Positions 5,168 to 12,951 of a stretch of DNA of 32,065 nucleotides are shown here, in pieces. The first letter of the stretch is position 1. Each line of letters begins with the position of its first letter. The stretch covers positions 1-32,065 of IMG/VR virus record IMGVR_UViG_3300047666_000651; one strand, written 5' to 3'. The translations under genes and the position numbers were made by a program. This DNA is from a virus. Below the pieces are notes generated by a model. It was given only the letters and a program-made list of their open reading frames with translations, searched no databases and was not told where the DNA came from.

Positions 5168-6094
5168 ATGAACAATACAACACAAAGACAAAGACCGTTA
5201 CATTTTTCCTTAGATACTCAGGACCAAGATGGAGAAATGTTTGTAAATATTCCAAAAAACAAAAATTATCAAGTCTCAAATTTTGGGCGAGTTAAGAGCA
5301 TGAAAACCGCAACTGGTAAAGTCATGCTACCTTATCAAGTTTCTGCGTTAGGGGCTTTCTGGGTAAGATTGCAGGGAAAACAAATAAAAGTTAGAGATTT
5401 AGTTTACCTTTCGTTTTTTGGTGAAATTAAGAAAGGTTTAAATATTAGATGTATTGACGAAAATCAAGCAAACTTGAATGTTAAGAATCTAATATCTTTC
5501 GATCCATTAGAATTGAAGAGAGAGCCAAAAGCACCGTTGATGCTAAAAGGGACAAAGCCTTACCTTTTCAGTAAATCCCAAAAAACCCAATACAAAGAAG
5601 TTTTTAAGCCTATAACGGGTTTAGTTGGACGTTACGAAGTTTCAAACATGGGACGGGTCAGGAGAACGAAGCACGTTCATAACGGCATAAATTACGCTGT
5701 TGTTGTTCTTTCGCCAAGCCTAAGCGGCACAAACAGAAAGTTTAGGATTAAGATTCAAAACGAATGGTATGTGGTTCAAGATTTAATGTTAGACGCATTT
5801 TTCGGACTTGAAAACAATCAGCGTGCTTTTGTGATTGATGGAGATCCTAGAAATTTGCATATTGACAACTTGGATTCACAAAAGGGCTGTCCTAGAACCA
5901 GGAGTGCCAAGCCGTCGGAAAGGAGCGTTAAAATAACTGTTTCGTCTGTTGTGCAGAAATTTAAAGAGGTAACAGTTGATTTGACAACGGGCAACAAAGC
6001 CGAAAAGCTTCTGGAGCTAAAAGGATTAAAAAAGGATTATTACATCGCATCGAGCGATAACGGAAAATATTTATTGAAACTTAAAAAAGCGTAG
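5168..6094 (+). CDS. degenerate double NUMOD4/HNH-like protein (308 aa)
   Basis: Two copies of a NUMOD4-like motif are visible: YQVSNFGRV at residues 34-42 and YEVSNMGRV at 156-164. NUMOD4 normally precedes an HNH nuclease domain in phage and homing endonucleases. Each copy here is followed by a remnant of that domain (RDLVYLSFFG...NVKNL near 77-108, and QDLMLDAFFG...VIDGDPRNLHIDNL near 204-235). The expected catalytic His in VHRLV and NHIDG is missing: Q204 and V222 stand there in repeat 2. The protein is thus probably not a nuclease and may only bind DNA. A basic C-terminus follows (about 240-308). Confidence 0.7.
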   Translation: MNNTTQRQRPLHFSLDTQDQDGEMFVNIPKNKNYQVSNFGRVKSMKTATGKVMLPYQVSALGAFWVRLQGKQIKVRDLVYLSFFGEIKKGLNIRCIDENQANLNVKNLISFDPLELKREPKAPLMLKGTKPYLFSKSQKTQYKEVFKPITGLVGRYEVSNMGRVRRTKHVHNGINYAVVVLSPSLSGTNRKFRIKIQNEWYVVQDLMLDAFFGLENNQRAFVIDGDPRNLHIDNLDSQKGCPRTRSAKPSERSVKITVSSVVQKFKEVTVDLTTGNKAEKLLELKGLKKDYYIASSDNGKYLLKLKKA

Positions 6095-9896: not shown

Positions 9897-9929
9897 TTTG
9901 GGTAGCGTGCGGCTTCGGTCGTACGTTTT
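9897..9929 (+). promoter_or_regulatory. possible promoter overlapping the terminator, for the tRNA-like elements
   Basis: TTTG (9897-9900), 21 bases, then TACGTTTT (9922-9929). The spacing from the -7 element to G9933, where the first tRNA-like element begins, is the same as in P1-P3, so a transcript could start directly on the acceptor stem. It overlaps the terminator hairpin, so the signal may be coincidental. Confidence 0.3.
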
Positions 9930-9931
9930 TT
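9906..9931 (+). terminator. strong intrinsic terminator with a UUCG tetraloop
   Basis: cgtgcggc (9906-9913) pairs with gtcgtacg (9918-9925) around a ttcg tetraloop closed by C-G, with two G-T pairs, followed by six T residues (9926-9931). The cUUCGg loop is a very stable and common bacterial terminator loop. It ends the P3 operon. Confidence 0.85.
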
Positions 9932-9932
9932 A

Positions 9933-10031
9933 GGGGGTGCAGCAAAAAGGCATAACCAGTTGAGCGGTTCGATTCCGTGAATTGCAAAAGGGGCAACTGG
10001 GTTTAAGTAGGTTCGAATCCTACCACCTCCA
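9933..10031 (+). tRNA. tRNA-like element 1 (D-stem not recognisable, enlarged anticodon-arm region)
   Basis: Acceptor stem gggggtg (9933-9939) pairs with cacctcc (10024-10030), with discriminator A10031. The T arm is gtagg-ttcgaat-cctac (10007-10023). GGCATAA at 9949-9955 resembles a D-loop with G18-G19, but no D-stem is seen. Where the anticodon arm should be there is a stem ccagttg/caactgg (9956-9962 with 9994-10000) enclosing a 31-base loop, which itself holds a T-loop-like cggttcgattccg. No credible anticodon was found. No CCA is encoded. It could be a decayed tRNA or a functional tRNA mimic. Confidence 0.45.
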
Positions 10032-10037
10032 CGATAT

Positions 10038-10192
10038 AAGACTAGAATGGCATAAAGGGTATATTGTCAGTAAAACGAGTATTCGACTTAGGTCGTAGTT
10101 TAGGTGCGAGACCTATTGGAAGTTAGGTTATCAATTAATCCCATATCGGGCGTTTTACTCCTAACAAACAGGTTCGATTCCTGCTAGTCCCA
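10038..10192 (+). tRNA. tRNA-like element 2 (long insert in place of the anticodon arm)
   Basis: Six bases after element 1, a second tRNA-like 3' half appears: T arm acagg-ttcgatt-cctgc (10168-10184, four pairs) and acceptor strand tagtccc (10185-10191) with discriminator A10192. It pairs with aagacta (10038-10044) at five of seven positions. The same GGCATAA D-loop-like motif is at 10049-10055. The anticodon-arm position holds stem gtaaaacg/cgttttac (10070-10077 with 10151-10158), enclosing 73 bases with a further stem taggtc/gaccta (10089-10094 with 10110-10115). Too long for a normal tRNA. Confidence 0.4.
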
Positions 10193-10215
10193 CGAAGTTT
10201 AAAATTAGTTAGTTA

Positions 10216-11079: not shown

Positions 11080-11469
11080 ATGGCACGACCGAGGAAGTTT
11101 GACACAGTGGAGAAAATGCAAAAGGCTATAGATGCTTATTACAAGAAGCAAAAGCGCAATGATAGACCGTTAACTGTACAGGGTTTAGCGTTGGCATTAG
11201 ACTTTAATAGTCGTATGTCTTTGCTGAATTACGAAGGGTATACAGACGATGAAGACAAAGGGTTTTTGGACACTATAAAAAAGGCGAAGCTTTTTATCGA
11301 AAATAATAAGGTGGAAGGTATGCTCACAGGAGACTATACAGCAGCTGGAGTTATTTTTGATTTAAAGAATAACCACGGACATAAAGACAAGCAAGTTCGA
11401 GAAGTTGTAAAAGCTGATGATTTAGAAGACGATGAACTAGACGATAAAATTAAGAAATTCCAAGGGTAA
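11080..11469 (+). CDS. terminase small subunit (129 aa)
   Basis: It recognises phage DNA and directs the large subunit to cut and package it. The N-terminus MARPRKF and the sequence PLTVQGLALALDFNSRMSLLNYE (a helix-turn-helix-like DNA-binding region, about residues 31-53), followed by TIKKAK and a central GVIFDLKNNHGHKDK, fit the family of small terminases related to P22 gp3-type DNA-packaging proteins of Bacteroidota phages. The C-terminus is acidic. It lies directly upstream (3 bases) of the large terminase gene, the classical pairing. Confidence 0.8.
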   Translation: MARPRKFDTVEKMQKAIDAYYKKQKRNDRPLTVQGLALALDFNSRMSLLNYEGYTDDEDKGFLDTIKKAKLFIENNKVEGMLTGDYTAAGVIFDLKNNHGHKDKQVREVVKADDLEDDELDDKIKKFQG

Positions 11470-11472
11470 ATA

Positions 11473-12951
11473 ATGGCGTTAACGAAAGCGGAGAAAATAG
11501 AGTATTACAAATTACTCTTAGAGAGAGAAAGGAGGCGGTCAAGGACAAGTTTCTTCACTTTCTTACGTCATCTATCACCCGACGAGTTTACATGGAATTG
11601 GCACCACAAATATTGTTGCGACGTGCTGCAAGATTGGGTACTTACGGACAAGCACCCTTTTTTAATGATCTTCATGCCGCCACAACATCAAAAAAGTACA
11701 ATGCTTACCGAGTTCCTTCCTGCGTGGGCTTTTGGTCAAAGTATTGATTATCAAGCTTTATTGATAATGTACAATAGCACGATGGCAAAAAAGTATAATA
11801 GGAAGATTCAGCGTATTATGGATAGTCCAGAATATGCAGCTATTTTTCCAGCGACAAAGCTAAACGAAAAGAGGGTTGTATCTAGCGCAGAAGGAAGTTA
11901 TATTAAAAATAGTGAAGAGTTTGAGATTGTTGGAGGGCGTGGCTTTTTGAAGTCTGTTGGCGTTGGTGGTGGTATTGCTGGAAATCCTGCAAAATTGGCG
12001 TTCCTTGACGATTTGATTAAGAACGCACAGGAGGCAAATAGCTTGACCTATAGAAACAGGACGCACGAATGGTATACGGATGAATTAGAAGCCCGTTTGC
12101 ACAATGATTCAAAGGTTGCGTTTACGATAACCAGGAGACACGAAGATGATCAAGCAGGGCGTTTGTTAAAGAGGGACGGATTGCTTGAAGATGGCGGCAG
12201 ATGGAAAGTGATTAAGATACCAGCGATTAAGGTAGATGATACGGACCCGAACGATCCACGAGAAATGGGAGACGCACTATTCCCGAACTTGCACAGCTTG
12301 GAAAGGTTAAATTATATAAGAAAAACCGAACCTAGGACGTTTGCAGGATTGTATCAACAGGAGCCAAAAGTAAAAGGTGGTGATATGATAAAAGGAGAAT
12401 GGTTTAAGATTATGAAGCCGTCGGAATTGCCTTTTAATATTAATTACGTTAACTTTGATGCGGTGGTTGATGGGGCGTGGACGGAAAAAGTAAAGAACGA
12501 TCCAACGGCTATTGGTTATTGTTACCACGATAAGAGGGATAATATTCTATACATTAGGGGCGTTAAATCGTTCAGAAAGAAGATAAGTAAAGCTATTGGG
12601 TTTATTGGGGACGATGCTCGTTTAAATGGCGTTACGAATCAAAGCTTAATCCATATTGAGTTGAAGTCAAGCGGTGAGGCGTTTAAGGATTTCTTATTCC
12701 AAGAGGGCTTCAATACTGATGGGATAGACGACGCTTTAGTAAGGAAAGGAAAAACAACAAGGGTTAACGAAATTGAAAGCCCGTTAAGAGGTGGACGTGT
12801 TGTTTTGATTGATGAAGGCAATTGGATTAAACCGTTCCTTGCTCAATGTGAACAATTCCCGAACGGCAAGCATGATGACGAGGTAGATGTTTTATGTTAC
12901 ATGGTACTTATTTATTTATTAACAGGGGGTAACCCGTATATATTATTATAA
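11473..12951 (+). CDS. terminase large subunit (492 aa)
   Basis: The packaging motor: an ATPase that pumps DNA into the capsid and a nuclease that cuts it. Residues 68-76, MPPQHQKST, are the Walker A-like P-loop. KLAFLDD (174-180) is the Walker B with its acidic pair, and TITRRHEDD (218-226) is the coupling motif. The C-terminal RNase H-like nuclease shows D329 (VNFDAVVD), E396 (HIELKSSG) and D468/D469 (KHDDEVD). Length is normal for the family. It overlaps the next gene by one base. Portal and capsid genes, usually adjacent, are 15 kb away. Confidence 0.9.
   Translation: MALTKAEKIEYYKLLLERERRRSRTSFFTFLRHLSPDEFTWNWHHKYCCDVLQDWVLTDKHPFLMIFMPPQHQKSTMLTEFLPAWAFGQSIDYQALLIMYNSTMAKKYNRKIQRIMDSPEYAAIFPATKLNEKRVVSSAEGSYIKNSEEFEIVGGRGFLKSVGVGGGIAGNPAKLAFLDDLIKNAQEANSLTYRNRTHEWYTDELEARLHNDSKVAFTITRRHEDDQAGRLLKRDGLLEDGGRWKVIKIPAIKVDDTDPNDPREMGDALFPNLHSLERLNYIRKTEPRTFAGLYQQEPKVKGGDMIKGEWFKIMKPSELPFNINYVNFDAVVDGAWTEKVKNDPTAIGYCYHDKRDNILYIRGVKSFRKKISKAIGFIGDDARLNGVTNQSLIHIELKSSGEAFKDFLFQEGFNTDGIDDALVRKGKTTRVNEIESPLRGGRVVLIDEGNWIKPFLAQCEQFPNGKHDDEVDVLCYMVLIYLLTGGNPYILL

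Follow-up and report, generated by a model that had tools for sequence, protein, structure and literature searches.

Tandem tRNA-like elements with a replaced anticodon arm upstream of the terminase genes of a flavobacterial-type phage, and related candidate non-decoding tRNA genes

Introduction

Bacteriophage T4 encodes two small stable RNAs of unknown function, rnaC and rnaD (species 1 and 2), within its tRNA cluster, and both are expressed late (PMC9697503). The bacterial Y RNA YrlA is a non-decoding tRNA mimic which has been proposed to act as a competitor for an anticodon nuclease (PMC7790460), while tmRNA has a tRNA-like end and, like the elements described here, has its anticodon arm replaced. 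A search of the open-access literature returned no description of phage tRNAs lacking the anticodon arm as a functional class.

The window analyzed here is the whole of IMG/VR virus record IMGVR_UViG_3300047666_000651, a stretch of 32,065 nt (32 kb). A sequence-only reading of it had pointed to two tandem tRNA-like elements with the anticodon arm replaced by another structure, had likened them to tmRNA and bacterial Y RNAs, and had named decayed tRNAs as the main alternative. We describe the anatomy of the elements, the same locus in related viruses and a wider set of candidate genes to which the locus led.

Results

The locus and its terminators

The large terminase of the window is closest, among annotated phages, to those of Flavobacterium phages (38–40% identity), and the virus is probably a flavobacterial-type phage. 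The tRNA-like elements lie approximately 1 kb upstream of the small terminase gene, in a gap between two intrinsic terminators. The features which frame the locus are as follows.

9905-9931, + strand, upstream intrinsic terminator: GCGTGCGGC-TTCG-GTCGTACGT and a T run, UUCG tetraloop; direct reading
10193-10210, + strand, conserved 3' flank: CGAAGTTTAAAATT, common to contig L003 and element B of contig L011; CGAAAGTT in contig L140
10216-10249, + strand, downstream intrinsic terminator: GGGGTTGAG..CTCAGCCCC and a T run, 9 bp, 10-nt loop; direct reading
11080-11469, + strand, terminase small subunit (PHROG 606), used as synteny marker
11473-12951, + strand, terminase large subunit (PHROG 38), used as query for relatives

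Both flanking terminators, which had been noted before, are real by direct reading. An automated terminator scan listed neither of them, the downstream one because its 10-nt loop exceeds the scan's loop limit of 8. The upstream terminator directly adjoins element 1, and no promoter was found between its T run and the element. Elsewhere in the window, positions 5168–6094 encode an HNH endonuclease-like protein with two matched stretches per PHROG family.

Structure of the two elements

9933-10034, + strand, tRNA-like element 1: acceptor, T arm, A at 10031, then CGA
9956-10000, + strand, stem replacing the anticodon arm of element 1: CCAGTTG 9956-9962 / CAACTGG 9994-10000, 7 bp, 31-nt loop; RNAfold minimum free energy (MFE) structure
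10040-10192, + strand, tRNA-like element 2: acceptor 10040-10045/10184-10189, T arm 10169-10183, D arm 10048-10069; direct reading
10070-10158, + strand, stem replacing the anticodon arm of element 2: GTAAAACG 10070-10077 / CGTTTTAC 10151-10158, 8 bp, 73-nt loop; direct reading and MFE structure

Direct reading of element 1 confirmed the anatomy that had been proposed for it, namely the acceptor, the T arm, the following A and the 7-bp stem with its 31-nt loop. The acceptor (GGGGGTG 9933–9939 / CACCTCC 10024–10030) has seven pairs including one G-T, the T arm (GTAGG-TTCGAAT-CCTAC, 10007–10023) has 5 bp, and the A at 10031 stands as discriminator. All 12 of the 12 pairs of the acceptor and T stems are present, the T loop conforms to TTCRANT, and the combined acceptor and T-arm score of 11.5 out of 12 was reached in none of 60 dinucleotide shuffles of the window. 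RNAfold places an inner 8-bp hairpin (9964–9971/9978–9985) within the 31-nt loop, and the fold as a whole has a z score of −2.73 (3 of 200 shuffles equally good). The D stem has at most 2 bp, in line with the earlier claim that no D stem is present, and U8 is also missing. A nested T arm within element 1 was considered as a second tRNA and rejected; RNAfold prefers an 8-bp hairpin there.

Element 2 has the 8-bp stem and 73-nt loop that had been described, but it is the weaker case because its overall fold is no better in total energy than shuffled sequence (z = 0.04). Its 6-bp acceptor (GACTAG/CTAGTC) is stacked on a 4-bp T arm (CAGG-TTCGATT-CCTG) to give a helix of 10 bp in total, and U8 is absent. 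Here the earlier claim does not stand, since a D stem (TGGCA 10048–10052 / TGTCA 10065–10069, with GGG in the loop) had been overlooked; the D hairpin is also found in the MFE structure. The motif GGCATAA does occur in both elements as had been reported, but its two copies are not equivalent: in element 1 it is single-stranded D-loop region, while in element 2 most of it belongs to the D stem, as the 5' strand.

Neither element was called by the tRNA and Rfam searches that had been suggested as checks. ARAGORN found 0 tRNAs in the window, and neither element matched Rfam at gathering score, RF00005 included. Instead of a 5-bp anticodon stem, a 7-nt loop and U33, the elements have loops of 31 and 73 nt. 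The proposed kinship with tmRNA and Y RNAs did not extend to membership: the best tmRNA score was 9.3–10 bits against gathering scores of 47–84, with no tag reading frame recognized and elements far too short, and for YrlA there was no Rfam match and no Rsr (Ro60) or Rtc gene recognized among the window proteins scanned. We also rejected a tRNA bearing a group I intron (no Rfam intron family matched, and the loops of 31 and 73 nt compare with a core of the order of at least 200 nt), homology with T4 rnaC/rnaD (no Rfam family in common, different folds) and an antisense payload (neither loop has a complement longer than 10 nt in the window, which is within the range of shuffles). Attachment-site remnants are partial tRNA genes (PMC9897764); this identity was ruled out, as both acceptor strands are present and no integrase was recognized among the window proteins examined. 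A search for phage DNA homologues of the whole region gave only short T-arm matches to phage tRNAs, and the pattern CCACGAAGTTTAAAATT gave, in viral contigs, chance matches besides the identical contig L002.

The same locus in related viruses

Three other contigs have the same flanks as the window, L002 (identical), L003 and L011. In L003 there is a single element with acceptor GCCGCTT/AAGCGGC and perfect D and T arms, scoring 50.5 bits as Rfam tRNA, in which the anticodon stem CCTAA/TTGGG closes a 32-nt loop. L011 has two elements. Element A (GGGGGTG/CACCCCT, 38.2 bits), which corresponds in position and acceptor to element 1 of the window, was reported by ARAGORN as tRNA-Ala with a poor anticodon arm, and element B (GCCGCTT/AGGCGGC, 46.2 bits) has perfect D and T arms and a 38-nt insert. 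A more distant relative, L140 (TerL 68%), has a tRNA-like gene enclosed by two terminators, 1.3 kb upstream of the terminase genes of that contig, the downstream terminator matching that of the window in position and differing in sequence. In the L140 gene the D arm is joined to the T arm by an 8-nt linker and the anticodon arm is absent (49.1 bits). All four of these elements exceed the Rfam tRNA gathering score of 29. The design that had been proposed, in which the tRNA body is kept and the anticodon arm changed, thus recurs at the same locus in L003, in both elements of L011 and in L140. The window copies are the most degenerate and least tRNA-like of the set, having lost more of the tRNA core than their relatives.

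Comparison across relatives, which had been suggested as a check, revealed compensatory changes in the D and T stems. Between L003 and L011 element B, pair 13-22 of the D stem changes from C-G to T-A and pair 50-64 of the T stem from G-T to T-A; the Levitt pair is A15-U48 in the former and G15-C48 in the latter. Between element 1 of the window and L011 element A, T-stem pairs 51-63 and 52-62 change from A-T to T-A and from G-C to A-T, respectively, while the acceptors remain paired. Such compensation preserves the D and T stems and the Levitt pair in relatives, whereas the anticodon arm diverges. Among the window, L003 and L011 the last 60 nt upstream are 95–98% identical and the 55 nt downstream 95–100%, against only 32–53% for the cassette between them, from which it appears that cassettes are exchanged at the element borders.

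A normal cloverleaf in homologues had been named as evidence against the proposal, and this was found in part. L007 (TerL 69%) has two terminators at a comparable position, and the gene which they enclose is a tRNA-Thr(UGU) whose anticodon arm is normal, although its acceptor has three mismatches and only 4 of 7 pairs. Decay of tRNA genes therefore stays a live rival. In four other relatives (TerL 65–69%) there was no such element in the contig parts examined. One further contig, L004, contains another arm-expanded element elsewhere and on the opposite strand.

tRNA genes lacking the anticodon arm in other phages

Guided by L140, we searched IMG/VR with patterns in which a D arm is joined to a T arm by 4–16 bases plus GG and which fix the 3' strand of the D arm as well as the inner T stem. 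This gave at least 129 distinct arm-less candidates in viral contigs, at least 93 of them with 6–7 of the 7 acceptor pairs. Among the matches listed, U8-A9 is present in 89 of 93, and the Levitt base at the end of the linker is C in 70 of 93 and T in 16 of 93. The linker CTTGGGTC is frequent in these genes and recurs with six unrelated stem sets. L140 has the architecture of this class (D arm, 8–13-nt linker, T arm), and the window elements, with their extra arm, do not.

A set of 23 arm-less genes gave a covariation score of 0.758 against 0.148 when shuffled and 0.09–0.17 when slid, with both-sided changes at 10 pairs (seven acceptor, three T-stem), a result in which acceptor pairing is biased because the rows were picked for at least 6 of 7 acceptor pairs (36 of 129 listed candidates failed), while the outer T-stem pairs are unbiased. 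Compensation is also seen between the T stems of L171 (GGTGG/CCGCC) and of Polaribacter phage Danklef (GTTGG/CCAAC). Paired stems would also be expected if different tRNAs had each lost the arm independently, but the shared linkers and the compensated changes between similar genes argue against such loss as the whole story.

The arm-less genes have among their neighbours genes for Q-like antiterminators, the small terminase, the portal and endolysin, so that they lie at late-operon junctions, and several of the genes stand directly 3' of a terminator. An identical acceptor strand, GCGCCAT, was seen in four separate contigs (L153, L164, L169 and L174) with different linkers and flanks; in L164 and L174 the gene is located after that of a Q-like antiterminator. 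In Danklef (MT732458, 43546–43603) the arm-less gene is annotated 'tRNA-OTHER, Undet (NNN)'; it follows a terminator directly, and TerS is located 1.8 kb downstream of it. Both the gene and the terminator are absent from the related phage Freya (L200 vs L198), and the two sequences are identical from a few bases past the tRNA 3' end, which marks a mosaic border. Lactococcus phages proPhi2 (L201, 794–854) and P335 (L202, about 198–260) have an unannotated tRNA-like gene near the record ends, in which only a tiny hairpin is left of the anticodon arm. The arm-less pattern was found in 0 of 395 Bacteroidota genomes, a search which covered far less sequence than IMG/VR, and we therefore claim no enrichment in phages over hosts.

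tRNAs with an expanded loop are common in viral contigs. At eleven loci we observed phage tRNA genes with a 39–46-nt insert at 28/29 or 29/30, excision of which gives perfect or near-perfect anticodon stems with 7-nt loops (Asn GUU, Lys UUU, Thr UGU, Arg UCU and others); many of the inserts have a common hairpin followed by ACAGCAA, and they are possibly mini-introns of unknown kind. The expanded-loop pattern occurred in 6 of 395 Bacteroidota genomes, partly as ordinary Ser tRNAs or tandem genes, and one of the 395 (L195), perhaps through a prophage, has an expanded-loop tRNA with an insert of the GCAAATAAAGTTCCTG type found in phage contigs. The 'tRNA-Val' of Aeromonas phage Aeh1 (L060 / AY266303, 96384–96505) is conserved in 13 Aeromonas phage records; with an anticodon region of approximately 70 nt, it cannot be what its annotation says, a normal tRNA-Val. 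Another nine loci contain phage tRNAs with a normal anticodon arm, the loop mostly CTTATAC or TTTATAC (anticodon UAU), and a long variable arm of class II type, which is unusual for an isoleucine tRNA.

Discussion

The relatives tip the balance, by a small measure, towards RNAs that are maintained and do not decode, and our reading on balance is that the locus probably encodes such a tRNA-like RNA. These RNAs would retain the tRNA acceptor, the T arm and usually the elbow, with no usable anticodon, since a different hairpin stands in for the arm (window, L003, L011) or the arm is lost (L140). A promoter would not fit beside element 1, and transcription would therefore occur by read-through of the upstream terminator; the ends would then be trimmed by host RNase P and RNase Z, and CCA, which is not encoded, would be added by a host enzyme. 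As the likeliest mechanism, the RNA may act in trans as a tRNA mimic, occupying enzymes that recognize the elbow and acceptor end without entering translation, and tRNA-attacking defence enzymes or toxins are candidate targets. Fast exchange of cassettes between near-identical flanks would fit a contest with host factors. The specific job of competitor or decoy is put forward tentatively. The more general idea, that phages encode widespread and overlooked tRNA bodies in which the decoding arm is deleted or replaced and which are selected as trans-acting tRNA mimics, is one we regard as plausible though somewhat short of probable; the window would then be a variant carrying a hairpin payload, and it is best filed as a degenerate, hairpin-bearing example of a tRNA mimic.

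The decay of ordinary phage tRNAs, acquired at this place and losing function with the anticodon arm hit by chance, was rightly named as the main alternative. We consider it unlikely but in need of serious weight. What keeps it alive is L007, whose near-normal tRNA-Thr(UGU) has 4 of 7 acceptor pairs, together with the window copies, which are in poor condition: they are without several core features, and element 2 folds no better than shuffles. Against decay, 0 of the 6 locus elements (window 1 and 2, L003, L011 A and B, L140) have a normal anticodon arm, while in the same six nearly every position of the acceptor and T stems is paired, with double compensatory changes; the relatives still score 38–50 bits as tRNA, and arm-less genes with shared linkers recur in unrelated phages.

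RNase P and RNase Z need no more in a substrate than an acceptor with a T arm, and the tRNA-like ends of MALAT1 and NEAT1 act in this way. The elements could thus be cis-acting processing signals which cut or trim late transcripts and for which the anticodon is irrelevant, in agreement with the good state of just the acceptor and T arm in element 1 and with the position of arm-less relatives at late-operon junctions, several directly after a terminator. This seems to us improbable, as a terminator within about 30 nt downstream in the window, L003, L011 and L140 leaves little to be freed, and the D arm and Levitt pair are retained in most copies though RNase P does not need them. Very improbable is a small intron, the extra bases being spliced out to give a normal tRNA. 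Some of the expanded tRNAs of other phage contigs do regain perfect anticodon stems and loops when 39–46 nt are removed at 28/29 or 29/30, and L003 could yield Thr-AGU, which fits its Thr-like acceptor; however, no single excision tested gives a paired stem and U33 loop in either window element, the outcomes for L003 (p = 0.23) and L011 element B (p = 0.49) do not stand out from shuffles, and L140 has no arm to restore.

If the reading as maintained non-decoding RNAs is true, phages make tRNA impostors unable to decode, which would give a handle on the roles of tRNA-like RNAs outside translation, such as blocking tRNA-attacking defences, hijacking tRNA-processing enzymes or serving as stable RNA scaffolds. 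It would also explain 'tRNA-OTHER' or 'undetermined' phage annotations such as that of Danklef, and it bears on the T4 stable RNAs. The larger interest is in the class that was reached by following the locus, beyond the window copies, and the class can be tested in culture, as an isolated Polaribacter strain is the host of Danklef, whose relative Freya is without the gene.

Among known systems, T4 rnaC ends in a T arm (CCGGG-TTCGAAT-CCCGG) as the window elements do, but otherwise has a different long hairpin. The Aeh1 'tRNA-Val' resembles them in its enlarged anticodon region, which is joined to a perfect acceptor and perfect D and T arms, and is 78–100% identical across its Aeromonas phage records, while differing in its insert and in the phage lineage to which it belongs. 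The Danklef gene, like those at our locus, keeps the tRNA body (acceptor, D arm and T arm) with the anticodon arm gone, and it directly follows a terminator upstream of TerS in a flavobacterial phage; at 58 nt, however, it has an 8-nt linker where the window elements bear an additional hairpin of 45–89 nt.
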